Of a DNA stretch of 64,000 nucleotides, positions 1 through 50,562 are shown piece after piece. Position 1 is the stretch's first letter. Each line of letters begins with the position of its first letter. The stretch lies in NCBI GenBank assembly GCA_029962745.1, contig CM057162.1:6140618-6204617 (forward strand), given 5' to 3'. The notes below the pieces were generated by a model. The model did not search any database, was not told where the DNA came from, and saw only the letters and a program-made list of their open reading frames with translations. The position numbers and the translations under genes were made by a program. The DNA is from Echinometra lucunter (taxonomy: Eukaryota; Echinodermata; Echinoidea; Camarodonta; Echinometridae).

Positions 1-945
1 TTTAAAACATTCATTTTCTTAAAAAGAGGAGAGCTATGACTTAAAGGTGGAGCATTGCACATAGCCCTAATTGCACGTTTTTGTAGTATGTATAATCGGT
101 TTAAAATAGTAATTCCACAGTTTCCCCAAACAATATTACAGTAAGACAAATGAGGTAAAATCATTGAATTGTATAGCATCATTAGTACTTTAAAAGGCAC
201 GACAAGTTTAATACGATTTAAAACACCAATAGCCTTAGCTATCTTAGATGATATATTATTAACATGTTCATTCCAGGTAAGCTTTTCATCGATTAATATA
301 CCCAAGAAATTTGTGTGCCCTACTCTTTTGATATTGACATCACCTATTTGAATTTGCATATCAGAGTTATGTAATGAATATTTTTTAGATTTAAAAAGCA
401 TAAATGAAGTTTTGTCAAAATTAATAATGAGACGGTTGGATATAAACCACTTGTAAACATTTCTTAATTCAGTATTGACAATAACATTTGTTTCATTTAA
501 GTTTGACCTGAAATAAATAAATTAGTATCGTCTGCAAACATAATTGGACAAAAATATTTACTAACATATTGAAATCATTTACAAATATTAAAAAGAGCAA
601 AGGCCCGAGGATTGACCCTTGTGGCACTCCGACAGTTAAATCAAGTTGGTCAGATGATACATTGTCAATACATACAAACTGCTTTCTATTAAAAAGATAA
701 CTTTTAAACCAATTGTGTATATTTCCCCTGATACCGTAATATTCAAGTGTCTGCAATAATATATGGTGATCAATGCAATCAAACGCCTTTGAAAGGTCCA
801 GAAATATTCCAATTAAAAACTTTTTCTGTTCAAAAACATTGGCAAGAGTGTTTGTGAAATCTAAAAGAGCAGTACTCGTTGAGTGACCTTGTCTAAAACC
901 AAATTGTCTTTCGTATAAAATATTGTTTTTATCAATATAATTCAA
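1..945 (-). pseudogene. LINE reverse transcriptase, palm and thumb, C-terminal part
   Basis: Palm motifs are clear: [31 protein letters not shown] with the first catalytic Asp, and [19 protein letters not shown]. The YADD box expected just downstream (about 500-560) is disturbed by a frameshift. In a different frame, 490 to 1 then reads through NFDKTSFMLF, NFLGILIDEKLTW and LPHLSYCNIVWG-like blocks, the region behind the RT in Jockey/CR1-like elements. The element runs off the window start. Confidence 0.88.
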
Positions 946-1373
946 TAATTTATTATAAACAATTTTTTCAAATGTCTTAGTAAAAACAGATAAAAGAGAA
1001 ATCGGACGATAGTTAGAAACTTTTTCTTTATCCCCTTTTTAAAAACTGGAATTACTTTAGCCACTTTGAGTTTATCGGGGAAAATACCTAACTCTAATGA
1101 CATATTAAAAATATTGCACATAGGTTGTAAAATAAAACATAACGACTTTTTAAAAACTTCAATATTGATATCATCAAATCCCGGACTCTTATTTACCTTG
1201 AATGACTTGACTACATCAATAATATCAGCTTGACTCACTGGAGTTACAAACATGGAATGATCTATTCTTCTTTTCATAAAAAAGGAAAAATGCAAATCGC
1301 TCGATGGTAAACTAGTTATAAGTTTAGATCCAATTGTACTGAAGTAACTATTAAAACTGTTTAACAATTTCAA
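942..1373 (-). pseudogene. LINE reverse transcriptase, N-terminal part
   Basis: The fingers region of the RT is visible: FKVNKSPGFDDINIEVFK, then [20 protein letters not shown]. These are the standard blocks that precede the palm. The frame drifts near 1020-1040, where the expected YRPISLLP-type block is scrambled, and the palm resumes in another frame below 945. It is part of the same dead LINE as the endonuclease upstream. Confidence 0.88.
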
Positions 1374-1505
1374 CCGTATCTTTGGTTTTCACATCATCAT
1401 CATCTTTGATAATTGTACACTGGTCTTTGACTTTACGTTTGTTAATAACTTCATTGATGGTCTTCCATGTTTTACTAATATTACCGTTAAGTTGAGTAAA
1501 TTTGT

Positions 1506-2580
1506 TTACATAATATTTCCTTTTACATCTTCGAACTTCGGTATTGAATTCATTCTGAATTCTTTGTATCTATTTCTTTTACTCAATGATGGATCTTTAA
1601 TGAATTTACGATATAAATTATGTTTCTTTTTACACATCTTCCGTAAAGTACTATTAAACCATGGTTTATTATCTTTAACATTGTATTTGAAAAGTTTGAG
1701 AGGGAAACATTCATCATATAATTTCTTGTACTGAGTATAAAATGCATCAAATCTATCATTAACATCAGTAAAATTATAAACAAAAGACCAATTTTGTTTT
1801 TGTAACTCCATACAAAATTGAAAAATTGAGTCACTATTAATACTTCGCTTTTGATAAAACGAAGGTAAAGAATTGCACTTTTTATAATTTGAAATTGCAT
1901 ATATTGCACAATGGTCACTAAAATCACATGTAAGAATTCCAGTACGACTAACACTGTCTGGTACATTAGTAAAAACATTATCAATGAGTGTGGCACTCTC
2001 AGAGGTAACTCGAGTAGGTTTAGAAATCAGAGGAGAAAACGAAAATGATGTTAATAGATCTAAAAAAGTTTTTGATAATTGAGAATTGTAAATCAAGTTG
2101 ATATTGTAATCTCCAAGTAAAAAACAATCCTTCTTTTCGTGCAAGGCATTTTGCAATATGAGTTCTAATTTATCAAGAAATAATGTAACAGATTTATCTG
2201 GAGGTCTATATATGACATAAATCAAAAGACTGTTGGAGGAACGATTTCTTGAAATTTCAATACACATACATTCAATAACATCATCCATAAGTTCTAAATC
2301 TGTTCGTCTTGTAAATAAGATATTATTTCTGATATAAATTCCTACTCCACCTCCTCGCTTAAAAACACGATTTTTGGCAAGAAAGTCATAATTGTGCAAG
2401 TTAAAATAAGTACTCTTGTCCTCTTTCAGCCATGTCTCAGTTAAACCTATAACTGAAAATTTAGCATTAAAGCAAGACTACGGCAATTCATGTGGATCAT
2501 TGATAAGTTTTCATTGTTTAAATATTTACAAGTATTAAATTCATTAGGGGTTGTGTAGGGGGAATCAAACTGCAATCTAT
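1506..2580 (-). pseudogene. LINE endonuclease (EEP) domain, frame-broken
   Basis: This part would nick target DNA to prime reverse transcription. Visible motifs are HMNCRSL at the N-terminus, GLTETWLKED, GGGVGIYIRN, YVIYRPP, LLGDYNIN and SDHCAIY, the usual active-site blocks of apurinic-like LINE endonucleases. The longest open run is 297 codons (1506-2399), beginning at an internal methionine. The domain clearly extends upstream to about 2580, where a small deletion after the CRSL block breaks the frame. No intact start or ORF1 is seen upstream. It is a relic with no expected function for the host. Confidence 0.88.
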
Positions 2581-6687: not shown

Positions 6688-7418
6688 AGTAAATATGAAT
6701 ATCAAATATAATAATACGCAAACATTGCAATGCACGGTACCCGGTCAGGCGCTGGCCGGGCGCCACAGGACCTCGGCCAGGCCCCAGCCGGGCAGCAGTT
6801 TATCGGACGGAGCCCGGAACCTTACCGTACGGCACCCGGCCGGCACCCTTATGGTTTGTTGACGGGTGCCTTGCGATTACACTCCACCAATTTTCACCGA
6901 GCATCGACCGGGCACCGTAGAATATGTGACCTCAAACGCCGTAGAAATGAAAATCTCAAGGGACCCTTACGGCCTCTACAATCCACGGCAAGCCGCCGGG
7001 TTGGGAAAATCGTACGGGGCCTGGTGGATTTGTGAGCTAGGTATTAGTCTGTATTCCCTCTACTGCAATTGTATTAAAACAGGTTCAGAGCGGTTAACAT
7101 ACATACACCAAAAGGGAAACGATGAATAACCAGGAAATGTACCCCGCTCGCTGCCCACCCCCTCCCCTCTCTCTCACTCTCTCTCTCTCTCTCTCTCTTT
7201 ACCCCATAGGTTCACCCTCACTGGGCAAAATATTTTCTCATTAAAAATTTTATAAACCATTGACGTGCTGTGATAAAACTACCTACACAATGCGTCCGTC
7301 ACGGTTAAATAAATAGAAAAAGGAACAAGGTGATGAAAAGTACAGCATATAAGTACAAAAAAGTGATATCACTCTACCATCTTGTAGGTGAATAATTGCA
7401 TCAGTCCACAATATTTCT

Positions 7419-12314: not shown

Positions 12315-12406
12315 ATGTGTGGATTCTATCAACTCTACCTACCAACGACACTTCTTATGAGAGCTGGTGATATAGAAACCAATCCAGGACCAATCACACC
12401 CGAGAG
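12315..12406 (+). CDS. NLR exon 1: short leader ending in a 2A-like motif
   Basis: The exon encodes about 30 residues: a short hydrophobic leader (MCGFYQLYLPTTLLMRA) and GDIETNPGP, an exact match to the 2A consensus D-[VI]-E-x-N-P-G-P. Skipping would fall between Gly25 and Pro26. In 2A peptides the ribosome releases the upstream peptide at this point and restarts at the proline. For N-terminal 2A-like sequences of sea urchin NLRs a role as a signal that affects localisation has been reported. I chose the ATG at 12315 because it gives the compact leader seen in that group and has A at -3. An in-frame ATG at 12156 would add 53 residues. A possible upstream acceptor ends at about 12297. The donor is AG|gtatgt, phase 2. 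Confidence 0.8.
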
Positions 12407-12907
12407 GTATGTCTACATATTATTGTTGAAAGGATATAATTGTTTAAATCACGTTCTTTCTTCGTGTTCTTTTTTTTTCTCTCTATTTTTTGCTCTTTTT
12501 TTGGGGGGGGGGGGAGGATATATAATCCCTATAGAATATATACGTGTGGTTGGTACTTCTCACGTTTATGAATCAAGCATTATTTCAAACTTATGTTACA
12601 AGCATAACAAAATAATACTGAGCATTGATGAAATGCCTTTGAATAAAACAACATGATTGCACTCACAACAAGAGAATGTTTATTTCTGTCGAGTTGGTAC
12701 TGTTTAAGTTTATTTACATGAAAGTTATTTGAGTCTTCCTTGAGTATTGCAATTATCTTTGATCGGTCCATTTTCTTCAACATACAAGTTGAAAGATGGG
12801 TAAACGTGACAATAATCTAATACAATTTTACAATATATTTTCCTCTAAACAGATAAAGTCTATAAAGTCTAAATGCATGCATTTCATTACATTTTATTAT
12901 CATGCAG

Positions 12908-13173
12908 TCACATCCGTGAACGGGAGATTCTACAGCTTTCAAAGGAAATCAATCCTGCTTACTACAACTCTCTGGGAACATCTCTAGGAATAAAGACAGA
13001 ACAGCTCCATGGCAACCGTGATGCTTTCCTTGCTGTTCTGATGGAGTGGAATGCCCACCAGCAAGCCAAAGACATAAACAAAAGGGAACTTCTAGCCGAC
13101 AAATTACAGGGGATTGGCCTGGGGGACCTATCAGACAAACTACGAAGTGGAAGTTTCATTGAGACTCCTCCGT
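12908..13173 (+). CDS. NLR exon 2: Death domain
   Basis: The acceptor tattatcatgcag and donor CGT|gtaag bracket 266 nt that continue the frame from exon 1 (phase 2 in, phase 1 out). The roughly 89 residues begin EREILQLSKEINPAYYNSLG and include LGIKTEQL, FLAVLMEWN and LLADKLQGIGLGDLSDKL. This is the six-helix Death-fold pattern, with the conserved Trp in helix 5 and the 'L..G..dL...L' end. Such domains bind other Death domains in signalling complexes in the cytosol. DEATH-NACHT-LRR is the common sea urchin NLR layout. A distant DED or CARD assignment is less likely. Confidence 0.85.
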
Positions 13174-13425: not shown

Positions 13426-15461
13426 ACGCACCTGCAGATCTGTCTGAGTCAACCGTAGAACCCCTGTCACCTGAGCTGATAGAGCGTTGCAGGAAAGACT
13501 TTATGCTAAAATACAATGCAACTCTCTGTCGGATAAGATCTGATCCTCTCAACCCCGACTCACTTGTCCAGCTTCAAGAAATATACACAAATCTTGTCTT
13601 GGAAGAAGAACATGGACACGGGAACCGAAATTTAGACTACAATGACCTCCTCGAAATTGAAGTTAATGGCGAGAGACCCCGAAGATTGCTAATTCAGGGA
13701 GAAGCTGGTGCTGGAAAAACAACTCTTTGTGCCAAGATTGCATGGGACTGGATAAATGGAACACATTACAAACAGTTTGCCTGGCTCCTCATTGTCCCTC
13801 TTAGAGAATCCGAAGACTACACTTTGGGTGAGATAGCAAAATCATACCTCCAAGAAGACAATCCAACTACGGCTGCTCAGCTTACACATTACATCCGTTC
13901 CAACCCTGACAATGTGCTCACAGTGTATGACGGCTTAGACGAGTTCAAAGGAAAACTTAGGAAGAAGAGGAGAAATGAGGCAAAGGGCGATTCCTTCACT
14001 CAAAAGCCAAGGAAACAGAGGCCCACTCGGCATGCAGGAACTGACACAAAAAAGGAATACTCTCGACCTGCAGGATCGCACACTCAAGAACCCAGTTTTC
14101 ACATCCACCCTGATGGTTTCAACAAGGAGTCAGTTGCACAGCAGACTCGTGGAAAAACCGAAACGCAAAGGCATGAACGTCAAGAGCTTGGTGGAGTCAC
14201 CCAACCTACAGGTAGTTTCACCCTGGATACTGGTGATGCTTTCAGTCAAAGGACAGATGACTGTACCGAACAAGCAGATGACTCTGAAGCTTCCAAGCAG
14301 CCTAAGGGTTATTCAGAGGGACAGAGTATTCACTCTCATCAGCAAGTTGGTTTCAGTGAAGTTCTAGGACCCTCCACTGCTCACGCTGGTCTTCACACTA
14401 AGAATCCATTTCATTACACTCTACATCATGACCCTAAATGTGAGAAATGCGAACTTGTCATTGAGGACATAATTAGTTGTAATCAGCTAAACACATCTGT
14501 TGTCCTGATCACGACTCGACCATGGAAAGCAAGGGAAATCAGAGAGGACACTGATATCCGGAAGGAATATGCCTTCATTAGGGTAGATGGCTTCACTGAA
14601 GAAAATATGTCAGCTTACGTTCACAAATACTTTGCGAAAGATGAATCCAGAGCAAATGAGCTAATCGAGTTCATAAAAGACAATGATGTTGTTTCTGAGA
14701 ACATGGCCCGCTATCCTATCTTTGTTGCCATGTTGTGTTTGATGTGGAAAGAAATCAAAGTGGAAAAGAAAGAGACAATCAAATCTCTTCAAACGTATTC
14801 TCAGTTCTTTGGAGAGATGTTCATGTTCCTGAAAGAGCATTACGTCCAAAAGATCACCGAAGACTTAAGTTCTTCTTCATTGGATAGGCTCATAAACGAG
14901 ACATCAGTACTCTTGAAACCGATCGCGGAGCTCGCCTTCACTGGACTCCTGGAGAACACACTCATATTCGAAGAAGAGCATTTCCATGACTGCCAGGATT
15001 CAAAGACAGCTGCTTGCAGGGTCGGAGTTTTATCTCAGGAGAACAGAATTGCACCAATGGTAGGCAGAGAGGAACGAAAACCTCATGCTCAATCAACAGT
15101 ATTTTTCCCACACAAACTGTTTCAGGAGTATATGGCCGGTGTTCATCTTGCTTCCCTGCATGACTCAGATCACATTGGGTATACCAAGTTGATGAAAGAA
15201 GTAGTTCTTCCTAGAAAGGAAGACTTCAGGTATCTCCTGTACTTCACTGCCTCACAAAACAAGACTGTGGGCATTAGTGTTATGTCGCACATGGTACAGG
15301 GATTCAAAGAAAGAACCAAATTTCTTGTTGATGTAGCTTTGGAGTGTAATGACCCGGATGCAGTGGCTGTCGTACAACACAATACTATGCCCAAGCTGAA
15401 GACTTTGAGAATTGATACGTCACACACTATTGCTGGTTACGCCTCCGTTGGAATTGACGTG
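13426..15461 (+). CDS. NLR exon 3: NACHT nucleoside-triphosphatase domain
   Basis: This large exon of 2,036 nt (phase 1 in, phase 0 out) follows the acceptor tttcatttcccag and ends GACGTG|gtgagt. It encodes the NACHT module that binds ATP/GTP and drives receptor oligomerisation. Visible are Walker A GEAGAGKTT (protein residues about 211-219), Walker B VLTVYDGLDEF (about 283-293) and the sensor-1 motif LITTRPWK (about 481-487). The winged-helix region follows with FFPHKLFQEYMAGVHLA, the family's 'H..fqEf.aA..l' signature. Between Walker B and sensor 1 lies a hydrophilic insert of about 160 residues rich in Lys, Arg, Gln, Thr and Ser (13953-14432), much longer than the usual short loop. No stop or frameshift is seen, and the key residues are present. 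Confidence 0.95.
13953..14432 (+). other. Low-complexity hydrophilic insert inside the NACHT domain
   Basis: About 160 codons directly after the Walker B acidic residues encode a charged, Thr/Ser/Gln/His-rich segment (for example KLRKKRRNEAKG, then TQPTGSFTLDTGD). Loosely repeated short patterns such as 'F-x-x-x-x-G' occur along it. No domain is recognised. It keeps the frame and is bounded by well-conserved NACHT blocks, so it is probably an unstructured loop and not an unspliced intron. I see no good donor/acceptor pair that would remove it in frame. Confidence 0.6.
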
Positions 15462-15716: not shown

Positions 15717-15872
15717 GTTGACCTTCACATTTCTAGATCGTGTGGCAAGACTGTGTCAGGTGATGTTGAACGAATTATCTGCTCATCACCATCTCTCAAT
15801 GCACTTACAATCCCATCAGAGATGCACGATGATTTTCATGCCTTTCTTGCCAAGGAGAGCCCAAACATCAAG
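15717..15872 (+). CDS. NLR exon 4: first, diverged leucine-rich exon
   Basis: The acceptor ttgctcttcag and donor ATCAAG|gtattt enclose 156 nt, phase 0 to phase 0. It encodes 52 residues beginning VDLHISRSCGKTVSG and containing LNALTIPSEMHDDFHAFL, ending SPNIK. The ending parallels the ASHIK end of the later repeats, and the LxxLxI spacing fits a leucine-rich unit. It is ten codons shorter than those repeats and clearly older than the tandem array. Confidence 0.8.
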
Positions 15873-21925: not shown

Positions 21926-22111
21926 ATCACAAAACTCTGTCTTGATGACATCTTTGGTGTTGGGGGAGACGAGGAACTATCCTCCTCAGCATCACGTGAT
22001 TTGGCAGAAGCTCTTTGTTCCATGCCTCATCTGAATGATTTAACTTTGAACAACACTCTTCCACATGATGACTTCTTCTCAGTAATGAAAGAAAAAGCTT
22101 CGCATATCAAG
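21926..22111 (+). CDS. NLR exon 5: leucine-rich repeat exon (array unit 1)
   Basis: 186 nt, 62 codons, phase 0 at both ends, acceptor gatttctttgtag and donor ATCAAG|gtatag. It reads ITKLCLDDIFGVGGDEELSS, then SRDLAEALCSMPHLNDLTL, ending KEKASHIK. Two LxxLxL beta-strand motifs (residues 1-7 and 35-41) suggest two LRRs per exon, of ribonuclease-inhibitor-like length. It is the first of the twelve near-identical exons, after a long intron of about 6 kb. Confidence 0.92.
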
Positions 22112-23305: not shown

Positions 23306-24270
23306 CCCAGAAGGAAAAACCAGTTGCAGCTGGACCAGTTGAACCAGTTAAATTCCAACTGGTAACTCTGGAAATTGAAACATCGTAACTGGTCTAACTG
23401 GTCCAGTTAAAAATCAAACTTGTCGAAAACCAGTAAGAAATTTAAACTGGTCCTGGTAACTGGAATTTCATACTGGTCCCAATTGTTACTGGTCTGGAAG
23501 TGGTTTCACTGACCTCACTGGTGTTTTAAACTGGTATTTCCAACTCAACTGGTCTTACTGGTGTTTCCAACTAGTCTTACTGGTATTTCCGTTGACAGCT
23601 GGAATTTTCAAACAAAGAAATAAAATTGCATTCTTATTTTATTTTAAATGTTGATTTCTCTAGAAAAAAAGGAAATATGCAAATGAGGTAAAACCATGTG
23701 ATCAACAAAAGCATCCACTGGTGTAACTGGTCAAGACCAGTTGAGCATTGTAGCCTACTTGAAACAAAAACTGGATTTAAACCAGTTGATTATCTAGAAT
23801 ATATTTTGTTTTGTTTATATTTATTGACAATGATTATAGCAGTAGTAGTAGTATGATAATAATAATAGTCATAATAATGATAATAATGATAATAATAATA
23901 ACAATAATAATAATAATAATAACAATAATAATAATGATAATAATAATAATAACAATAATAATAATAATAATAACAATAATAATAATAATAACAAGCACAA
24001 TCATAATGATGATAATAATAATCTCGGAACAAAAATAGCTCAATCATCAACTGGTCTGACTGGAAATATGGCCATTGTTCAGTTCAGTAAAACCAGCTTG
24101 ATGAAAAATAATTTAACTAGTTTTACTTCTTTACTGCAACTGGAGTACAATTCATGGAACTGGTTTCCAGTTGATTTTAACTGGCCCAGTTAAAAATCAA
24201 CTGGTCCAGTAAAAATCAACTGGAAACCAGTAAAAAATTCTTACTGGTCTAACTGGTTTTTCCTTCTGGG
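23306..24270. mobile_element. Non-autonomous DNA element with perfect 20-bp TIRs (copy A)
   Basis: The ends are CCCAGAAGGAAAAACCAGTT and its exact reverse complement. The interior is packed with CCAGT/ACTGG motifs. Uninserted sister introns read 'gtaaacacattt', while here the flanks are gtaaa and aacacattt, so the target duplication is 2 bp (AA). An ATT/ATG microsatellite sits in the middle. There is no transposase frame; the superfamily is unknown. Confidence 0.92.
23848..24022. repeat. ATT/ATG-rich microsatellite
   Basis: Trinucleotide tract (AAT)n with AAC and GAT variants inside the TIR element. All reading frames across it give Ile-, Tyr- or Asn-rich strings that are not genes. The partner tract in copy B is at 31000-31190. 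Confidence 0.95.
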
Positions 24271-25131
24271 AACACATTTCACCAATATCAAGTAAATAAT
24301 ATTCATATCATATACCCTTCTAGGTAGTTAACACCTTTTAGTGTGTTTCTCACGATATGCATATTAATGATCGTCATGATTTTTAACTCCTTTGCTGTAT
24401 AGGGAAACGAATGGTCAAAAGAGGAAACCTGTCTTGTTTATCCGGCTTCTGATTATAAATCAGTCTCTGTATTTTAAATGAACCAAACAAAATCTCGCAT
24501 TGTATAAAATACATTTGATTTTACTCACTTCCTGACTTCCGAAATATAAAATATTGGTCATCTGTCAACTAAAACAAGGCCCTTTTCCTGATATTTGCAT
24601 TTTACACGTTTATATCGTTAGTGCATACAGCTAAGAAATGCATACTAAACAAATCTCCTACATCCGGCCAAATCGCTCCAACACGCCAAGGGACATTGCT
24701 ATTGTGCACTCATCGATCTTGATTACCCTACTTTCCTATGCCTTTCAAACCCAGAGTAAATATTACTGAAGAAAAAAACATGTCAACAAAAAAAAAGCAA
24801 AAAAAAACAAACCAAGCAAACAAATAACCAAAACACATTTAAGAGGTTTACATTTAGAGTATTTTGTGTGTATTTTGTTAGTGCATACAGCTAAGAAATG
24901 CATAATAGCAAATCACCTACATCCGGCCAAATTGCTCCAACATGTCCAAGTGACACTGCTATTGTGCACTCATCGATCTTGATTAACCTACTTTCCTATG
25001 CCTTTCAAACCCAGAATAAATATCACTGAAAAAAAACATGTCAACAACGAAACAAACATGCAAACCAAGCAAACAAATAACCAAAACACATTTAAGAGGT
25101 TTATATTTAAAGTATTTGTGTTTAACTATGT

Positions 25132-25692
25132 CACCGGCGTAAATCCACTCTGAGGAGTGGGGGGGGGGGGGATGATTGACTTTTTTGACGATTTTTTTTT
25201 TTCTGTCGATCTCACACTTAAGTATAAGCACACACCCTCACTGACCCCCACAGACCCCCTACACACATTTTAATATTTATTTTGCGAGCGAGCGAAGCGA
25301 GTGAGCCAAATATAACCATTTTTCTAGTTTTTAATTGCATTTTCTAACAGAAATTCTAAACTATCAGCGAGCAAAGCGAGCAAGCCAAAAATAACCACCT
25401 TTCTCATTTTTAATCGCATTTTCGAATAGAAACTTTAAATTAATGACGAGCGAGCGAGCCAAAAATAACCACTTTTTTGGTTTCCAATCGCATTTTCAAA
25501 TAGAAATTCTAAAATATGATGGTTGTTTATGACAGATATTCAAAGATTTTACCAACGGATTAATTAAAATATATTTTCTTTCTTAAAAAGTGGGGGGGGG
25601 GGGGATATTTGTACACGCCATCCCCCCCTCTCCAAAAAGTGGGGGGGATATATCCCCCACCCCCCCCCCCCCCCCCGGGATTTACGCCAATG
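25132..25692. mobile_element. hAT-like non-autonomous element with poly(G) ends (copy A)
   Basis: The 15-bp terminal inverted repeats follow CAYYGGCGTAAATCC. They are flanked by perfect 8-bp duplications 'aactatgt' (25124-25131 and 25693-25700). Sister introns without the insertion read 'aactatgtagttgttgtag'. An 8-bp TSD and CA-starting ends fit the hAT superfamily. The interior has poly(G)/poly(C) tracts near both ends and several tandem units of about 80 bp with 'gcgagcgagcgaagcgag' and 'aaataaccacttttt'. No coding frame. Confidence 0.88.
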
Positions 25693-26040
25693 AACTATGT
25701 AGTTGTTGTAGCTGCAAAGGTATTCCTATAGATGTCAGGAGAAGATTGAAGTGCTTGATTATTGTTACCTGAGGAGATACACCACATTTTCTGCAATGTC
25801 TTGGAAAAAAATGTCTAAGTATCGTTCCCTTTTTTTTCTGGGGGTGGGGGTTATTTTTTAAACTCTTTTATTAACCGTTTACGTTTAGGTTTTTTTTTTA
25901 AATGTGTCTAAATTGAAACTTATTTTTTCACTCTACCCGTTCATTGTAAGTTGCATGCCTGATAAGGGGATGGTATTTGTTAGCTTGGATGAGTAGATTC
26001 ATACAGTACTCGATGTATTAGCGTGTTGATATGTTTCTAT

Positions 26041-26075
26041 GAATTGATTTCTCTGCCGAATCGCACCTAGGGACA
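26041..26075 (+). other. Exon-loss scar in the LRR array (copy A)
   Basis: The usual pre-exon sequence 'gttgatatgtttctatgaattgatttct' runs directly into 'ctgccgaatcgcacctagggacaatg', which resembles the downstream half of a normal intron ('ccaaatcgct..aagggacaatg'). The acceptor, the exon and the first half of the next intron are missing. The same junction lies in copy B at 33250-33286. Confidence 0.8.
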
Positions 26076-26285
26076 ATGTTATCATCGATCTCGACAACTA
26101 CCCTATTTTCCTCTGACTTTCAAACTTAGAAAAATATAATTAAAAAAAAAACATGTCAACAACAAACACGCAAACAACAATATCCACACACTTTTAAGAA
26201 GTTTATATTTCAAGTGTTTTTGAGAAACTATGTGTAGTTGCTGTAGCTGCAAAGGTATTCCTAATAGATGTCAGGAGAAGATTGA

Positions 26286-27899
26286 GGTGCCAGGTAGAAA
26301 TGTCAGAGGTAAAAATGTCAGATGGGAAAATGTCAGAGGTAAAAATGTGAGAGGTAAAAAGTCAGAGGAAAAACGTCAGGGGTAAAAATGTCAGAGGCAA
26401 AAATGTCAGGGGTAAAAATGTCAGAGGTAAAAATGTCAGAGGTAAATGTCAGAGGTAAAAATGGGAGAGGATAAAATGGCAGAGGTAAACATGTCAGAGG
26501 TAAAAATGTCAGAGGAAAAATGTCAGAGGCAAAAATGTCAGGGGTAAAAATGTCAGAGGTAAAAAATGTCAGAGGTAAATGTCAGAGTTAAAAATGTCAG
26601 AGTTAAAAATGTCAGCGGTAAAAATGTCAGAGGAAAATTAAAGTAAACATGTTACAGGTATGAATATTGAATTATAGAAATTGTGGGGAGTGCGAGATAT
26701 TCAAATATGTTCTGTAATTATCTGTGTTTACTTGAATGTCCTTGTCTTGGCCATTTGGAAATAACAGTTATGGTGTTGGCGGGGTAAACGTACTGGTATG
26801 CGCGCATTGCCTAAAGACCACGTTTACACCCCGGAGACGGGCATTGTAAAAACGATGGTGGGAAATACCTTTGGCTTTGTAACATGAGTAGCTGACCACA
26901 CGAGTGCGCGATTTTAATATGCACATTCCTCTTCATAAGCCCCCCCCCCTCCGCCCTACTCTAATCAAGCGTGGTGTACGTGAACGAATACTTAAATATT
27001 AATATCCTCATACGTAAGGAAGAACAGGAAGTAAGCGAAATTGAACTGTTAATTCGATCTATTTCTCGACCTTTTATATTATTATTATTATCTGTTATAT
27101 TATTTCATCGGATACTCTGAGGAATTATCAATTTTTAAAAAGAATTACTCATTTAGTTTATTGCGTTGCATATGCAAAACATCAAACGTGGATATCCCTT
27201 TAGCTTTCTTTCCATCTACCTGTCATTCCACTAAGATCTTAAATCATTTACTATAATCCTGTAACTTATTTCCATCAATATTAAAAAAATATATATATAT
27301 ACTAATTATAATGAACATCATGCCATACATTTTCTACTCAAAAGGCGCAATTTACTTGTTGAAATTGTCACAAATATGTTTCACAGTGCATGTCAAGCAG
27401 CCAAAGCTTAAACTCAGAGAGGGAACTGGGCGTTCGTTTGCTGCTATATATAGAGTCAGCTTAACAAGTTTACGGAAGATGAAAACACTGTTGGGTAAAG
27501 CACACATACCGGAATGTTCTCAACGCCAAAACAAGAATCTTCTCATTGGGTGATTTATGAATAGGGTAAGATTATCACTTCCACATCAAATAATAAGACA
27601 GGAAGGCCATTCAAGTGACTGAACATATACAGTTGGCTTACAGAGAGTAGTATAATTATTGTGATCACTCCATTTATACCATGTATACAGTACTCTTTTT
27701 TATATCTCGTGCTCTTCCTAATTTCGAATTCAATATTCTTACCTGTAACACGTTCTCTTCGGCATTTTCAGAGCTGACATTTTCAACTCTGGCATTTTTA
27801 CCTCTGAACTGTTTACCTCTGAAATTTCTACCATTGACATTTTTTCCTCTGACATTTTTACCTCTGACATTTTCACCTCTGACATGTTTACACCGAACC
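26286..27899. mobile_element. Foldback element with minisatellite arms, 8-bp TSD (copy A)
   Basis: Perfect 8-bp repeats 'aagattga' (26278-26285 and 27900-27907) flank the block. Sister introns read 'agaagattgaaaggtttag' or similar without it. The left arm is a 15-bp minisatellite (aaaaatgtcagaggt)n at 26304-26637, and the right arm at 27770-27890 has the same unit inverted. Between them lie about 1.1 kb of unique-looking DNA, including an 80-codon reading frame (27311-27553) with no recognised domain. Confidence 0.88.
26304..26637 (+). repeat. 15-bp minisatellite, unit aaaaatgtcagaggt
   Basis: More than twenty imperfect units in tandem, with the same array at 33514-33845. The inverted units at 27770-27890 and 34982-35100 produce a repetitive Arg-Gly-Lys-Asn-Val reading on the minus strand that is not a gene. 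Confidence 0.95.
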
Positions 27900-28534
27900 A
27901 AGATTGAAAGGTTTAGTTATTTTTACAAGAGGGGATACGCATAAGAACTTGGAAGCGTCGAATGGGAGGAGAGAGAGGAGGGCAGGAGAAAGAGGAGAGG
28001 AGGAGGAAAATAAACAATAGAAGAAAAATGAGAAGTGGGATATGCATGGAAACTAGGAGGAAAGGAGGAAGGAGGAGGAGAAAGTTACTATCAAAGCCAC
28101 TGAATAACTTTTTTGCCCTGTAGAATGCATTTTAAGACAGAAGCATATGCCTGTCCAGTTTAGCTTTTCAAATGGTGGAATTCAGTGACAGATATGTTGA
28201 TGATAACATCCTGTATTAAAAAAAAATCCAATAGCATAATCTGAGGAAAGGAACGGAGAAAAAAAAAAGAGAACAAGAAGAGCCCAAGCTGACGTGACGG
28301 GACATTACAGCGTAGAAAAAGGAACTTAAATTATAAGAGACATACAGAACACACAAAGAAGATATAAATATAAATGTTATAAGTGAGAGAAAGAGAGGCT
28401 GGATCACTGGTATCACGACGGACAGGGACAAATCAGGATCAGGGGGAGACAGAGAAAAACTAGAGGCTAGTTTTCAGCACTAAAGAAGGTATCAAACAAG
28501 CAAACAAGAGAGTGCAGAAAGGATGGAATGACAC

Positions 28535-28612
28535 AAGAGAAAAGGGAGAGAGAGAGAGAGAGAAAGAATTAAACAAAGAGAGAGAGAGACATAGAGAGAG
28601 ACAGCAAGACAG
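28535..28612 (+). repeat. GA-rich simple repeat (partner at 36085-36160)
   Basis: Mostly (GA)n with interruptions, present in both copies of the duplicated block. Ser/Leu-rich readings on the other strand come from it. Confidence 0.9.
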
Positions 28613-29056
28613 AGGAAGGGATGAAGCTTAGAACTTTCCCTCAACCAACGCTGACACTGTCTGTGTGTATACCATAGTACCGTACCCACAGCAGTGGGTG
28701 TTCACATTTTCAGTAACTTAACCGGCGAGTTACGCTATAGAGGCGGATCACATTATCGAAGCTTAACATACGCTACATTTTCATTAGTGCGTTCATGGTT
28801 TGGAAAATATATAAGAATCGTTTGTGTTGGTGTGCGTGAGTGCGTGTGTGTTTGTCAACTCTTTTTAATCTGTAACCGGTTATGGTTTTGAAAATTTGTT
28901 TAAATTGCAACTTTTTTTTTTCTCAATCTTTACCCGTTCATTTGTTAGTTATGTGCATGATCAGGGGATGGTATTTGTTAGATTGGACGAGTAGATTCAT
29001 TCAGTCTTCAATGTATTACCGTGTTGATATATTTCTATGAATTGATTTCTTAATAG

Positions 29057-29239
29057 ATCACCAAACTCTGTCTTGAGGACATCCCTGATGTTGGGGGAGA
29101 CAAGAAACTATCCTCAGCATCACGTGATTTGGCAGAAGCTCTTTGTTCCATGCCTCATCTGAATGATTTAACTTTGAACAACACTCGTCCACATGATGAC
29201 TTCTTCTCAGTAATGAAAGAAAAAGCTTCGCATATCAAG
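29057..29239 (+). CDS. NLR exon 7: leucine-rich repeat exon
   Basis: 61 codons (183 nt), phase 0-0, with one Ser codon fewer in the SSSAS stretch. It reads ITKLCLEDIPDVGGDKKLSS then ASRDLAEAL. The acceptor is gatttcttaatag, altered from the usual tttgtag but still usable. Its closest relative is the exon at 36606, its counterpart in the duplicated block. Confidence 0.9.
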
Positions 29240-30239
29240 GTATAATCCCAGTTGATACAAAATGCATGTAATCACATTTCACCAATATCAAGTAAATAAT
29301 ATTCATATCATATATCCTTCGAGGTAGTTTACGCATTTTTGTGTGTATCTCACGGTATACAGAAAAAAATGATCGTCATGATTTTTAACTCGTTTGCTAT
29401 ATAGGGAAACGAATGGTCAAAAGAGGAAACCTGTCTTGTTTATCCGGCTTCTGATTATAAATCAATCTCTGTATTTTAAATGAACCATACAAAATCTCGC
29501 ATTGTATAAAATACATTTTATTTTACTCACTTCCTGACTTCCGAAATATAAAATATTGGTCATCTGTCACCTAAAACAAGGCCCATTTCCTGATATTTGC
29601 ATTTTACACGTTTATATCGTTAGTGCATACAGCTAAGAAATGCATAATAAGCAAATCTCCTACATCCGGCCAAATCGCTCCAACACGCCAAGGGACAATG
29701 CTATTGTGCACTCATCCATCTTGATTACCCTACTTTCCTTTGCCTTTCAAACCCAGAGTAAATATCACTGAAGAAAAAAACAACATGTCAACAACAAAAC
29801 AAACAAGCAAACGAAGCAAACAAAATAACCAAAACACATTTAAGAGGTTATATTTAAAGTATTTTGTGTGTAATTATGTAGTTGTTGTAGCTACAAGCAT
29901 TTACTCATGTCAGGAGAAGATTGCAGTGCTTAATTATTGTTACCTGAGGAGATACTCCACATTTTCTGCAATGGGCTCATGTCTTGGCAAAATATTTAAG
30001 TATCGTTTTCTTTTTCTTTTTTCTGGGGGTTGGCGGTAATCTTTTTAACTCTTATATTAACCTGCAACGTTTAAGTTTTTAAAAAAAGTGTCTAAATTGA
30101 AACTTATTTTTTTCACTCTTCCCGTTCATTGTTGCATTAATGATCAGGGGATGGTATTTGTTAGCGTGGATGAGTAGATTCATTCAGTCTTCGATATATG
30201 ACCGTGTTGATATGTTTCTATGAATTGATTTCTTTGTAG

Positions 30240-30458: not shown

Positions 30459-31035
30459 CCCAGAAGGAAAAACCAGTTGCAGCTGGACCAGTTGAACCAG
30501 TTAAATTCCAACTGGTAACTCTGGAAATTGAAACATCGTAACTGGTCTAACTGGTCCAGTTAAAAATCAAACTTGTCGAAAACCAGTAAGAAATTTAAAC
30601 TGGTCCTGGTAACTGGAATTTCATACTGGTCCCAATTGTTACTGGTCTGGAAGTGGTTTCACTGACCTCACTGGTGTTTTAAACTGGTATTTCCAACTCA
30701 ACTGGTCTTACTCGTGTTTCCAACTAGTCTTACTGGTATTTCCGTTGACAACTGGAATTTTCAAACAAAGAATTGCATTCGTATTTTATTTTAAATGTTG
30801 ATTTCTCTAGAAAAAAAGGAAATATGCAAATGAGGTAAAACCATGTGATCAACAAAAGCATCCACTGGTGTAACTGGTCAAGACCAGTTGAGAATTGTAG
30901 CCTACTTGAAACAAAAACTGGATTTAAACCAGTTGATTATCTAGAATATATTTTGTTTTGTTTATATTTATTGACAATGATTATAGCAGTAGTAGTAGTA
31001 TGATAATAATAATAGTCATAATAATGATAATAATG

Positions 31036-31066
<31 letters not shown>

Positions 31067-31080
31067 TAATAATAATGATG

Positions 31081-31111
<31 letters not shown>

Positions 31112-31461
31112 GAATAATAATAATAATAACAAGCACAATCATAATGATGATAATAATAATAGCATAATATTGATGATGATAATAATAATTTCTTTGTAAT
31201 ATATAATTACTATCTCGGAACAAAAATAGCTCAATCATCAACTGGTCTGACTGGAAATATGGCCATTGTTCAGTTCAGTAAAACCAGCTTGATGAAAAAT
31301 AATTTAACTAGTTTTACTTCTTTACTGCAACTGGAGTACAATTCATGGAACTGGTTTCCAGATGATTTTAACTGGCCCAGTTAAAAATCAACTGGTCCAG
31401 TAAAAATCAACTGGAAACCAGTAAAAAATTCTTACTGGTCTAACTGGTTTTTCCTTCTGGG
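30459..31461. mobile_element. Non-autonomous DNA element with perfect 20-bp TIRs (copy B)
   Basis: Same element at the same intron position as copy A, with the same flanks and TIRs. It is longer only because of the central microsatellite and an added 'ataatattgatgatg' block. It was therefore present before the segmental duplication. Confidence 0.92.
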
Positions 31462-32342
31462 AACACATTTCACCAATATCAAGTAAATAATATTCATATC
31501 ATATACCCTTCTAGGTAGTTAACACCTTTTAGTGTGTTTCTCACGATATGCAGATTAATGATCGTCATGATTTTTAACTCCTTTGCTGTATAGGGAAACG
31601 AATGGTCAAAAGAGGAAACCTGTCTTGTTTATCCGGCTTCTGATTATAAATCAGTCTCTGTATTTTAAATGAACCAAACAAAATCTCGCATTGTATAAAA
31701 TACATTTGATTTTACTCACTTCCTGACTTCCAAAATATAAAATATTGGTCATCTGTCAACTAAAACAAGGCCCTTTTCCTGATATTTGCATTTTACACGT
31801 TTATATCGTTAGTGCATACAGCTAAGAAATGCATACTAAACAAATCTCCTACATCCGGCCAAATCGCTCCAACACGCCAAGGGACAATGCTATTGTGCAC
31901 TCATCCATCTTGATTACCCTACTTTCCTATGCCTTTCAAACCCAGAGTAAATATTACTGAAGAAAAAAACATGTCAACAAAAAAAAAAAAAAAAAAAAAC
32001 AACAAAAAAAAACAAACAAACCAAGCAAACAAATAACCAAAACACATTTAAGAGGTTTACATTTAGAGTATTTTGTGTGTATTTTGTTAGTGCATACAGC
32101 TAAGAAATGCATAATAGCAAATCACCTACATCCGGCCAAATTGCTCCAACATGTCCAAGTGACACTGCTATTGTGCACTCATCGATCTTGATTAACCTAC
32201 TTTCCTATGCCTTTCAAACCCAGAATAAATATCACTGAAAAAAAAACTTGTCAACAACGAAACAAACATGCAAACCAAGCAAACAAATAACCAAAACACA
32301 TTTAAGAGGTTTATATTTAAAGTATTTTGTGTTTAACTATGT

Positions 32343-32902
32343 CACCGGCGTAAATCCACTATGAGGAGTGAAGGGGGGGGGGGATGATTGACTTTTTTGA
32401 CGATTTTTTTTTCTGTCGATCTCACACTTAAGTATAAGCACACACCCTCACTGACCCCCACAGACCCCCTACACACATTTTAATATTTATTTTGCGAGCG
32501 AGCGAAGCGAGTGAGCCAAATATAACCATTTTTCTAGTTTTTAATTGCATTTTCTAACAGAAATTCTAAAATATGAGCGAGCAAAGCGAGCAAGCCAAAA
32601 ATAACCACTTTTCTCATTTTTAATCGCATTTTCGAATAGAAATTCTAAATTAATGACGAGCGAGCCAAAAATAACCACTTTTTTGGTTTCCAATCGCATT
32701 TTCAAATAGAAATTCTAAAATATGATGGTTGTTTATGACAAGTATTCAAAAATTTTACTAACGGATTAATTTAAATATATTTTCTTTCTTAAAAGTGGGG
32801 GGGGGGGGGATATTTGTACACGCCATCCCCCCCCCCCCTCCCCAAAAAGTGGGGGGATATATCCCCCCATCCCCCCCCCCCCCCCCGGAATTTACGCCAA
32901 TG
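32343..32902. mobile_element. hAT-like non-autonomous element with poly(G) ends (copy B)
   Basis: Same ends and same 8-bp duplications (32335-32342 and 32903-32910) as copy A, again with internal 'gcgagcgagcgaagcgag' units. It is shared by descent through the segmental duplication. Confidence 0.88.
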
Positions 32903-33249
32903 AACTATGTAGTTGTTGTAGCTGCAAAGGTATTCCTATAGATGTCAGGAGAAGATTGAAGTGCTTGATTATTGTTACCTGAGGAGACACACCACATTTT
33001 CGGCAATGTCTTGGAAAAAATTGTCTAAGTATCGTTTCCTTTTTTTTCTGGGGGTGGGGGTTATTTTTTAAACTCTTTTATTAACCTGTTACGTTTAGGT
33101 TTTTTTTTAAATGTGTCTAAATTGAAACTTATTTTTTCACTCTACCCGTTCATTGTAAGTTGCATGCCTGATAAGGGGATGGTATTTGTTAGCTTGGATG
33201 AGTAGATTCATACAGTACTCGATGTATTAGCGTGTTGATATGTTTCTAT

Positions 33250-33286
33250 GAATTGATTTCTCTGCCGAATCGCACCTAGGGACAAT
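33250..33286 (+). other. Exon-loss scar in the LRR array (copy B)
   Basis: Same fused junction as at 26041-26075, so the deletion predates the block duplication. Confidence 0.8.
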
Positions 33287-33495
33287 GTTATCATCGATCT
33301 CGACAACTACCCTATTTTCCTCTGACTTTCAAACCCAGAAATATATAATAAAAAAAAAAAACATGTCAACAACAAACACGCAAACAACAATATCCAAACA
33401 CTTTTAAGAAGTTTATATTTCAAGTGTTTTTGAGAAACTACGTATAGTTGCTGTAGCTGCAAAGGTATTCCTAATAGATGTCAGGAGAAGATTGA

Positions 33496-35111
33496 GGTGC
33501 CAGGTAGAAATGTCAGAGGTAAAAATGACAGATGGGAAAATGTCAGAGGTAAAAATGTGAGAGGTAAAAAGTCAGAGGAAAAACGTCAGGGGTAAAAATG
33601 TCAGAGGCAAAAATGTCAGGGGTAAAAATGTCAGAGGTAAAAATGTCAGAGGTAAATGTCAGAGGTAAAAATGGGAGAGGATAAAATGGCAGAGGTAAAC
33701 ATGTCAGAGGTAAAAATGTCAGAGGAAAAATGTCAGAGGCAAAAATGTCAGGGGTAAAAATGTCAGAGGTAAAAAATGTCAGAGGTAAATGTCAGAGTTA
33801 AAAATGTCAGAGTTAAAAATGTCAGCGGTAAAAATGTCAGAGGAAAATTAAAGTAAACATGTTACAGGTATGAATATTGAATTATAGAAATTGTGGGGAG
33901 TGCGAGATATTCAAATATGTTCTGTAATTATCTGTGTTTACTTGAATGTCCTTGTCTTGGCCATTTGGAAATAACAGTTATGGTGTTGGCGGGGTAAACG
34001 TACTGGTATGCGCGCATTGCCTAAAGACCACGTTTACACCGCGGAGACGGGCATTGTAAAAACGATGGTGGGAAATACCTTTGGCTTTGTAACATGAGTA
34101 GCTGACCACACGAGTGCGCGATTTTAATATGCACATTCCTCTTCATAAGCCCCCCCCCCCCTCCGCCCTACTCTAATCAAGCGTGGTGTACGTGAACGAA
34201 TACTTAAATATTAATATCCTCATACGTAAGGAAGAACAGGAAGTAAGCGAAATTGAACTGTTAATTCGATCTATTTCTCGACCTTTTATATTATTATTAT
34301 TATCTGTTATATTATTTCATCGGATACTCTGAGGAATTATCAATTTTTAAAAAGAATTACTCATTTAGTTTATTGCGTTGCATATGCAAAACATCAAACG
34401 TGGATATCCCTTTAGCTTTCTTTCCATCTACCTGTCATTCCACTAAGATCTTAAATCATTTACTATAATCCTGTAACTTATTTCCATCAATATTAAAAAA
34501 AAATATATATATACTAATTATAATGAACATCATGCCATACATTTTCTACTCAAAAGGCGCAATTTACTTGTTGAAATTGTCACAAATATGTTTCACAGTG
34601 CATGTCAAGCAGCCAAAGCTTAAACTCAGAGAGGGAACTGGGCGTTCGTTTGCTGCTATATATAGAGTCAGCTTAACAAGTTTACGGAAGATGAAAACAC
34701 TGTTGGGTAAAGCACACATACCGGAATGTTCTCAACGCCAAAACAAGAATCTTCTCATTGGGTGGTTTATGAATAGGGTAAGATTATCACTTCCACATCA
34801 AATAATAAGACAGGAAGGCCATTCAAGTGACTGAACATATACAGTTGGCTTACAGAGAGTAGTATAATTATTGTGATCACTCCATTTATACCATGTATAC
34901 AGTACTCTTTTTTATATCTCGTGCTCTTCCTAATTTCGAATTCAATATTCTTACCTGTAACACGTTCTCTTCGGCATTTTCAGAGCTGACATTTTCAACT
35001 CTGGCATTTTTACCTCTGAACTGTTTACCTCTGAAATTTCTACCATTGACATTTTTTCCTCTGACATTTTTACCTCTGACATTTTCACCTCTGACATGTT
35101 TACACCGAACC
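33496..35111. mobile_element. Foldback element with minisatellite arms, 8-bp TSD (copy B)
   Basis: Near-identical partner of 26286-27899, with 'aagattga' at 33488-33495 and 35112-35119. The internal reading frame at 34523-34834 is longer than in copy A because the TGA of copy A reads TGG here. That shows the frame is not under a fixed coding constraint in both copies. Confidence 0.88.
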
Positions 35112-35780
35112 AAGATTGAAAGGTTTAGTTATTTTTACAAGAGGGGATACGCATAAGAACTTGGAAGCGTCGAATGGGAGGAGAGAGAGGAGGGCAGGAG
35201 AAAGAGGAGATGAGGAGGAAAATAAACAATAGAAGAAAAATGAGAAGTGGGATATGCATGGAAACTAGGAGGAAAGAAGGAAAGAGGAGGAGAAAGTTAC
35301 TATCAAAGCCACTGAGTAACTTTTTTTGCCCTGTAGAATGCATTTTAAGACAGAAGCATATGCCTGTCCAGTTTAGCTTTTCAAATGGTGGAATTCAGTG
35401 ACAGATATGTTGATGATAACATCCTGTATTAAAAAAAAAAAAACCGAACCAAGATTGAAAGGTTTAGTTATTTTTACAAGAGGGGATACGCATAAGAACT
35501 TGGAAGCGTCGAATGGGAGGAGAGAGAGGAGGGCAGGAGAAAGAGGAGAGGAGGAGGAAAATAAACAATAGAAGAAAAATGAGAAGTGGGATATGCATGG
35601 AAACTAGGAGGAAAGGAGGAAGGAGGAGGAGAAAGTTACTATCAAAGCCACTGAATAACTTTTTTGCCCTGTAGAATGCATTTTAAGACAGAAGCATATG
35701 CCTGTCCAGTTTAGCTTTTCAAATGGTGGAATTCAGTGACAGATATGTTGATGATAACATCCTGTATTAAAAAAAAATCC
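35104..35780 (+). repeat. Local 339-bp tandem duplication in copy B
   Basis: The block from 'accgaaccaagattgaaagg' to 'cctgtattaaaaaaa' occurs twice (35104-35442 and 35443-35780) with a few substitutions. Copy A has it once (27892-28226). Purine-rich AGGAGG tracts dominate the unit. Confidence 0.9.
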
Positions 35781-36605
35781 AATAGCATAATCTGAGGAAA
35801 GGAACGGAGAAAAAAAAAAGAGAACAAGAAGAGCCCAAGCTGACGTGACGGGACATTACAGCGTAGAAAAAGGAACTTAAATTATAAGAGACATACAGAA
35901 CACACAAAGAAGATATAAATATAAATGTTATAAGTGAGAGAAAGAGAGGCTGGATCACTGGTATCACGACGGACAGGGACAAATCAGGATCAGGTGGACA
36001 CAGAGAAAAACTAGAGGCTAGTTTTCAGCACTAAAGAAGGTATCAAACAAGCAAACAAGAGAGTGCAGAAAGGATGGAATGACACAAGAGAAAAGGGAGA
36101 GAGAGAGAGAGAGAAAGAATTAAACAAAGAGAGAGAGAGACATAGAGAGAGACAGCAAGACAGAGGAAGGGATGAAGCTTAGAACTTTCCCTCAACCAAC
36201 GCTGACACTGTCTGTGTGTATACCATAGTACCGTACCCACAGCAGTGGGTGTACACATTTTCAGTAACTTAACCGGCGAGTTACGCTATAGAGGCTGATC
36301 ACATTATCGAAGCTTAACATACGCTACATTTTCATTAGTGCGTTCATGGTTTGGAAAATATATAAGAATCGTTTGTGTTGGTGTGCGTGAGTGCGTGTGT
36401 GTTTGTCAACTCTTTTTAATCTGTAACCGGTTATGGTTTTGAAAATTTGTTTAAATTGCAACTTTTTTTTCTCAATCTTTACCCGTTCATTTGTTAGTTA
36501 TGTGCATGATCAGGGGATGGTATTTGTTAGATTGGACGAGTAGATTCATTCAGTCTTCAATGTATTACCGTGTTGATATATTTCTATGAATTGATTTCTT
36601 AATAG

Positions 36606-36788
36606 ATCACCAAACTCTGTCTTGAGGACATCCCTGATGTTGGGGGAGACAAGAAACTATCCTCAGCATCACGTGATTTGGCAGAAGCTCTTTGTTCCAT
36701 GCCTCATCTGAATGATTTAACTTTGAAAAACACTCGTCCACATGATGACTTCTACTCAGTAATGAAAGAAAAAGCTTCTCATATCAAG
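36606..36788 (+). CDS. NLR exon 9: leucine-rich repeat exon
   Basis: 61 codons, phase 0-0, the duplicated partner of the exon at 29057. It shares the one-codon deletion and the taatag acceptor, and differs in LKNTRPHDDFYS. From here on, exon plus intron units follow each other in a regular tandem of about 1.18 kb. Confidence 0.92.
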
Positions 36789-37784
36789 GTATAGTCCCAG
36801 TTAATACAAAGTACATGGTAACACACTTCACTAATATCAAGTAAATAATATTCATATCATATATCCTCTTAGGTACTTAACACATTTTTAGTGTGTATTT
36901 CACGATATGCAGAAAAAAAATGAATATCATAATTTTTAACTCGGTTGCTGTACAGGGAAACGAAAGGTCAAAAGAGGAAATCTGTCTCGTTTATCCGGCT
37001 TCTGATTATATCCATCTCTGTAATTAACCAAACGAAATCTCGCATTGTATGAAATACATTTTATTTTACTCACTTCCTGACTTCCGAAATGTAAAAGATT
37101 GGTCATCTCTCACCTAAAACTAGGCCCTTTTCCCATATTTGCATTTTACACATTTACATCGTTAGTGCATACAGCCAAGAAATGCATAATAAGCAAATCT
37201 CCTAGGCCTACATCTGGCCAAATCGTTTCATGGGACAATGCAATTGTGCACTCATCGATCTTGACTACCTTACTTTCCTATGCCTTTCAAACCCAGAATA
37301 AATATCATTAAAAAAACCAACATGTCAACAACAAAGCAAACACGCAAACAAAACAAACAAATAACCAAAACAAATTTAAAAATTTTGTATTTCAAGTATT
37401 TTGTTGTAACTATGTAGTTGTTGTAGCTGCAAAGGTATTCCTAATAGATGTTAGAAGAAGATTGCAATGCTTAATTATTCTTACCTGTGGGGATACGTCA
37501 CATTTTCTGCAATGGGCTCATGTCTTGGCAAAATATTTAAGTATCGTTTTCTTTTTCTTTTTTCTGGGGGTTGGCGGTAATCTTTTTAACTCTTATATTA
37601 ACCTGCAACGTTTAAGTTTTTAAAAAAAGTGTCTAAATTGAAACTTATTTTTTTCACTCTACCCGTTCATTGTCAGTTGCATTAATGATCAGGGGATGGC
37701 ATTTGTTAGCGTGGATGAGGAGATTCATTCAGTCTTCGATGTATTACCGTGTTGATACGTTTCTATGAATTGATTTCTTTTTAG

Positions 37785-50410: not shown

Positions 50411-50508
50411 GAACCCTTCCCTCAAGTGACCGAGGGACGCTTTAGGCTCAATGGAGTCACTCAACGGGACATACAGTCATTACTGAACTCATTCAAGGAG
50501 ATGCTAGG
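50411..50508 (+). CDS. NLR exon 17: linker after the LRRs
   Basis: 98 nt, phase 0 in, phase 2 out, donor CTAGG|gtaagt. It reads EPFPQVTEGRFRLNGVTQRD then IQSLLNSFKEMLG, amphipathic and helical in look. The acceptor (gcatatttaag) has a weak pyrimidine tract, but the frame and phase fit both neighbours. No named domain; possibly the LRR cap. Confidence 0.7.
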
Positions 50509-50562
50509 GTAAGTATTCTTTAAAAAAATAATAATAATGGGATATAGATGGGAATATTTTAA

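Follow-up and report, generated by a model that had tools for sequence, protein, structure and literature searches.

A 2A leader exon at the start of an Echinometra lucunter NLR gene: selection may hold the recoding signal more firmly than the signal sequence

The locus

The window, a 64-kb stretch of the Echinometra lucunter genome (64,000 nucleotides), carries on its plus strand a gene modelled with 17 exons and 1,625 open codons, GT-AG borders at all 16 introns and one terminal stop. Coding exon 1 (12315–12406) ends in phase 2, with a GTATGT donor directly after 12406. Its first 26 codons (12315–12392) encode MCGFYQLYLPTTLLMRA followed by GDIETNPGP, with a predicted skip between Gly25 and Pro26. 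The exon encodes MCGFYQLYLPTTLLMRAGDIETNPGPITPE and closes with two bases that belong to the next codon, its product reads MCGFYQLYLPTTLLMRA-GDIETNPGP-ITPE, and translation of 12315–12407 gives MCGFYQLYLPTTLLMRAGDIETNPGPITPER. The exact 2A consensus that the initial annotation had placed right after the leader is seen in the translation of the first coding exon. Across all six reading frames of the window, the pattern D[VI]ExNPGP occurs this single time, and its chance expectation, calculated from amino-acid composition, is 4.8e-5.

Exon 2 (12908–13173) begins after an AG acceptor at 12906–12907, and the start of exon 3 at 13426 is likewise preceded by an AG acceptor. Joined together, 12315–12406, 12908–13173 and 13426–15461 form a single open frame; an alternative exon 2 donor after 13171 leads to an early stop, and only the donor after 13173 stays in frame. 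Homologs of exon 2 are 47% identical, and the match of the exon to Pfam Death (PF00531) is weak (E 0.074, 13.6 bits, under the cut-off of 22.6). Among six relatives scanned with the same profile, P0049, P0054 and a piece of P0087 pass the cut-off, a piece of P0020 reaches 18.4, and the pieces of P0002 and P0019 gave no match. A structure model of exon 2 (pLDDT 85.6, with 12 sequences in the alignment) has the death domains of TNFR1 and Fas/FADD as its first five PDB matches, with TM scores of about 0.63–0.67 and probabilities of 0.90–1.00, at E-values of 0.24 or worse and none reaching 0.001. The modelled structure conforms to a Death fold, and the exon was filed as a Death domain because of this predicted fold and of the relatives that pass the Pfam cut-off. 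Stathmins, the sole matches of the Death exon in a PDB sequence search, all had E above 1 and were rejected. The common open frame, the donor and acceptor, homology and the fold model agree with the in-phase splice to a Death-domain exon that had been proposed.

Exon 3 (13426–15461) encodes a NACHT NTPase (Pfam NACHT, E 3.1e-21) with intact Walker A and B motifs, read in the window frame as GEAGAGKTT and VYDGLDE. The domain holds a long, hydrophilic insert (window 13900–14510), such that 185 residues separate Walker B from the TTRPW strand, as compared with 26–89 in 84 homologs. Exon 4 (15717–15872) has its homologous counterpart in S. purpuratus NLRs at the point where their C-terminal region begins. 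It is followed by 12 exons repeated in tandem, each 183 or 186 nt long (21926–49917), all open and in phase 0, which start at 21926, 23087, 29057, 30240, 36606, 37785, 38794, 39974, 41137, 42298, 43494 and 49732 and match the leucine-rich repeats that homologous NLRs have at their C-terminus. The last coding exon (50411–50512) includes the stop codon. Sequence, homology and fold model thus concur on the identity as an NLR gene that had been assigned, and the order of parts is that of the SpNLR2A type: a 26-residue N-terminal stretch with a terminal D(V/I)ExNPGP, then Death, NACHT and C-terminal repeat regions.

The repeat exons are 73–98% identical to one another, have GT-AG borders and are mostly spaced at about 1.0–1.2 kb, with three longer gaps; they are an expanded exon array for the C-terminal repeats of the receptor. 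Within the array, a duplication with an offset of about 7.2 kb links approximately 23624–29240 with 30771–36800, where several pieces of 250–300 nt are 96–100% identical at spacings of 7147–7212. The duplication doubled part of the array recently. The leftmost part of the window holds non-LTR retroelement pieces (493–2474, minus strand), with reverse transcriptase at 493–1035, endonuclease at 1506–2474 and no 2A motif.

Relatives of the encoded protein

Homologs of the window protein were taken as the 120 best of 195 matches. The first named one is an S. purpuratus NLR with 52% identity over 42% of the query, and Lytechinus NLRs are also among the best. When these 120 homologs served as tblastn queries, 54 matched the exon 1 region, 72 the Death exon and all 120 the NACHT exon. 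The initial annotation had put forward, as a check, a search of other echinoderm NLR first exons for the same leader. The 2A leader motif is present in 55 of the 120 listed homologs, including proteins of S. purpuratus and L. pictus, and one of the 55 is of the kind assayed by Roulston et al. (2016). A simple regular expression found no leader-like stretch in the 65 homologs that have no motif. By name, 28 of the 120 listed homologs are from Lytechinus; the motif occurs in one of them, P0087 of L. pictus, and the remaining listed ones have different predicted N-termini. The leader in Lytechinus may often have been lost, missed by gene prediction or replaced.

Residues 1–45 of P0008, used as a query, gave 48 matches, all in S. 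purpuratus proteins. Three of these, P0124 among them, had not appeared among the NACHT-bearing homologs of the window protein. In P0124, a predicted S. purpuratus protein, the 2A leader lies near the C-terminus, after repeat units, as if gene prediction or read-through had joined two adjacent NLR genes. Window residues 1–119 as a query returned no homologs at E 10, a result that we ascribe to the word filter and not to absence. A midpoint-rooted tree of 87 NACHT regions grouped the window with three proteins at a support of 0.997, and no inference was drawn from it.

2A exons across the genome

The assembly to which the window belongs (743 Mb in 2,266 contigs) contains 108 matches to the motif pattern, and the reversed pattern has none. 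Of these 108, 100 were read as places, namely 99 loci and the window, and sorted by leader, splice donor and frame (L001–L008 overlap L051–L058 and were counted once; among the eight unlisted matches, L114–L116 were read later as matches of an exon-DNA search). Class I comprises 41 exons, the window's included, with a GF-x-x-LYL-like leader, and class II comprises 37 other exons in which the motif stands just before a phase-2 donor. Four assignments were made by eye, L012 and L022 (missed by the regular expression) to class I and L056 and L086 to class II. The other 22 places are retroelement-like or unassigned; long frames placed L021 and L046 here, and L065 is truly unassigned.

Receptor domains accompany many of these exons. 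Leaving the window aside, 28 of 40 class I loci have a Death exon no more than about 3 kb downstream; one of the loci has less than 1 kb of sequence. The same was found at 12 of the 15 class II loci examined, L108 at E 2.7e-4 only, and no Death exon was found at the remaining three (L056, L063 and L113). Conversely, 45 of 871 candidate NACHT places near P0040 were scored, and for 32 of them a 2A exon of the same strand is listed at an upstream distance of 25 kb or less. The exon-DNA search added one for C2178 and C2201, while C1942 and C2203 fall beyond the listed matches; the final tally for the 45 is 34 with a 2A exon, nine with none found and the two beyond the listing. The NACHT matches of L051 and L054 were discarded, as they derive from P0108, part of which also matches window 66–308 and which was taken for retroelement-like.

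Many non-LTR retrotransposons carry 2A-like sequences, and it is conceivable that exon 1 was captured from one recently and has no receptor function. The 22 retroelement-like or unassigned places among the 100 read would fit such an origin, as would the endonuclease domains detected in all three of the retroelement-like places given a Pfam scan (3 of 22) and the retroelement near the left border of the window itself. Against this, the exon splices in the same phase in many paralogs and is common to the NLRs of S. purpuratus and L. pictus, the window's own retroelement carries no 2A, and the frame of the window 2A does not run into endonuclease or reverse transcriptase. The residue at position 11 also separates the two groups, with R or K in 75 of the 78 listed NLR-type exons and in none of the 22 retroelement-like places. 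Recent capture is thus highly improbable; an old capture of the exon from a retrotransposon would still be compatible with these data.

Context and hydropathy of the leader

Besides R/K at 11, the 78 listed NLR-type exons share I, L or M at position 15 (75 exons), L at 14 (73), L at 13 (74) and S or A at 10 (all 78), followed by GDxExNPGP, and the two classes differ over positions 16–26. In the published account of Roulston et al. (2016; PMC4981915), leader mutants at 11, 13 and 14 lost much of the skipping and those at 16 little or none. Positions 16 and 17, which were free to vary in that assay, do vary among the NLR-type exons. The window leader keeps R11, L13 and L14, has Thr at position 15, where only three of the 78 listed exons, this one included, deviate from I, L or M, and has PTT in its core where the nearest copies have PMM or PML.

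These changes bring up the possibility that the motif is a fossil or arose by chance, i.e., that the leader is translated and the 2A of the window gene no longer skips. The same account holds that upstream context matters for 2A, and the context in the window is derived. On the other hand, all core residues are intact along with R11, L13 and L14, the chance expectation is very small, and the 2A of the paralogs is under strong constraint (see below). We consider loss of skipping unlikely.

Hydropathy was expressed as the best 8-residue Kyte–Doolittle mean, which is not equivalent to a signal-peptide prediction. On this scale the window leader scores 1.36, the lowest of the 41 listed class I leaders (median 2.76) and of 60 leaders when homologs are included, the 59 homologous ones ranging from 2.61 to 3.52. 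The leader described initially as hydrophobic is so only weakly. Fourteen of the 37 listed class II leaders are less hydrophobic still. Hydrophilic class II leaders with a Death exon downstream include MEGNNCPDVNSILLMRA (L057 and L058), EEGSNCPNTNNILLMRA (L059), VKDNGFLDMTNMLLLRS (L060), YMKERNANWNKELLIQA (L079) and SDITSTPNTTELLIQKA (L085); hydrophobic leaders also occur among the Death-linked class II exons (L061 and L074). Some class II exons, such as L057, apparently stand behind an acceptor, and an upstream exon could therefore supply a signal peptide for some of these genes. A strongly hydrophobic family of 2A exons (3.09) is formed by L070–L075, L097, L103 and L106 (C14 and others) and L056 (C8), with LLRFLLLVFTAILLIRS. 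Its exons have no Met in the 42 residues read, and a weak downstream Death match was seen in one only (L108).

Constraint on leader and motif

An exon-DNA search of the genome used the paralog exon L050 as its query, chosen to avoid selecting copies by motif. It returned 37 matches of at least 79% identity, 34 of them at listed motif places and three read afterwards, and GD[V/I]ETNPGP is intact in all 37. This count carries some bias, because the query contained the motif and because the search missed seven of the 41 class I exons, the window's own and those of or near its subgroup. The 33 sequences that are distinct give a dN/dS of 1.09 before the start codon, 0.62 over codons 2–10, 0.28 over codons 11–17 and 0.06 for the 2A itself; directly behind the 2A it is 0.88. 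In six of the 37 copies (L014, L031, L036, L040, L044 and L116) the start Met is absent and the 2A is kept; in four of these copies an in-frame Met occurs five codons further upstream. The wider pattern suggests that the recoding signal is under stronger selection than the signal sequence, and the secretion-like leader looks less conserved than the skipping signal.

Proposed mechanism and its alternatives

Given the gene structure, homology and 2A conservation observed here, exon 1 probably opens an echinoid NLR gene of the SpNLR2A type, with Death, NACHT and repeat regions, in which the 2A skips and the recoding signal is the selected element. Translation would start at 12315, and after 25 residues the nascent 2A peptide would block formation of the Gly-Pro bond. 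Most ribosomes would then release the 25-residue leader and go on to produce a cytosolic NLR starting Pro-Ile-Thr-Pro, while a minority would yield the fused, unskipped protein. That skipping takes place, that it is efficient and that its product is cytosolic we infer by analogy with the assayed S. purpuratus relative, and selection would act on the recoding signal and not on the signal sequence.

The known clause of the initial annotation, that sea urchin NLRs have N-terminal 2A-like sequences, is matched by Roulston et al. (2016; PMC4981915), whose account reports 14 clear 26-residue leaders in S. purpuratus NLRs, 12 of them predicted signals, and a leader with both skipping and signal-sequence activity. 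Skipping by SpNLR2A6 was estimated there at about 80%, a skip-dead form localised to the Golgi, and dual targeting was demonstrated for SpNLR2A6 in HeLa and plant cells. Under such a scheme the skipped receptor would be cytosolic, the unskipped one would enter the secretory pathway through the same leader, and the ratio of the two would be the purpose of the arrangement. Most listed class I leaders are fairly hydrophobic and those of the class II L070 family strongly so, in keeping with dual targeting. Working against it are the window leader, the least hydrophobic of its listed class, the Arg at position 16 in four and the Pro at 17 in 18 of the 41 listed class I exons, and the hydrophilic leaders of Death-linked class II exons. 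Dual targeting as the explanation of the window gene is possible and no better than tentative.

At the moment of the skip decision, the entire leader should still be inside the ribosome exit tunnel, and skipping would therefore be settled before any targeting factor binds. The low hydrophobicity of the leader makes it doubtful that the unskipped window form is targeted to the ER. Single leader substitutions left localisation unchanged in the work of Roulston et al. (PMC4981915), so a moderate loss of hydrophobicity may be harmless. The suggestion that skipped and unskipped products have different destinations accordingly stands as a weak one for the window gene, with its unusually hydrophobic-poor leader and a 2A that is conserved genome-wide while leaders drift or are hydrophilic.

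On several chromosomes, NLR-type exons keep the 2A, and the leaders in front of it span everything from strongly hydrophobic to hydrophilic. The evidence leaves evenly balanced the broader idea that in echinoid NLRs the 2A, and not the signal sequence, is the ancestral conserved N-terminal function and dual secretion a side branch. If it is true, the role of the 2A could be to control the receptor's start, giving a free short peptide and a receptor that begins with Pro; alternatively, the 2A could be a gate on receptor synthesis tied to the state of translation. A proline-degron role was considered and set aside. If, in one genome, many receptors retain an intact skip signal and yet have drifting or hydrophilic leaders, the accepted dual-targeting reading needs revision, and the genome offers a natural series of leaders for separating skipping from targeting.

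Comparison with known 2A systems

The window gene is a new member of the published SpNLR2A kind, and the phenomenon itself is already known. A 2026 StopGo paper (PMC12846837) and a 2024 review (PMC11512398) cite the NLR case, the review naming NLRs as cellular sequences that carry 2A, and De Felipe et al. (2010; PMC2978324) describe that ER translocation can inhibit 2A. No further work on 2A in echinoid NLRs was found by title or start of abstract in the open-licence literature.

With the SpNLR2A leaders (PMC4981915) the window leader shares its length of 26 residues, the N-terminal position, the terminal GD(V/I)ETNPGP, the R11/L13/L14 context and the Death-NACHT-repeat receptor. It differs in belonging to another genome, in a core of PTT instead of LLLI or LLMI, in Gln at 21, Cys at 25 and Thr at 15, and in a hydropathy below that of every other leader compared. 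Viral 2A or StopGo sequences, as described in PMC12846837, share the D(V/I)ExNPG/P core and are expected to work by the same mechanism, but the window 2A stands at the N-terminus of a host receptor and not between the parts of a polyprotein. The 2A-like sequences of non-LTR retrotransposons share the core motif and are found in the same genome, whereas their frame runs into endonuclease, no splice donor follows the motif, and the R or K at position 11 of the NLR-type exons is seen in none of the 22 listed copies.
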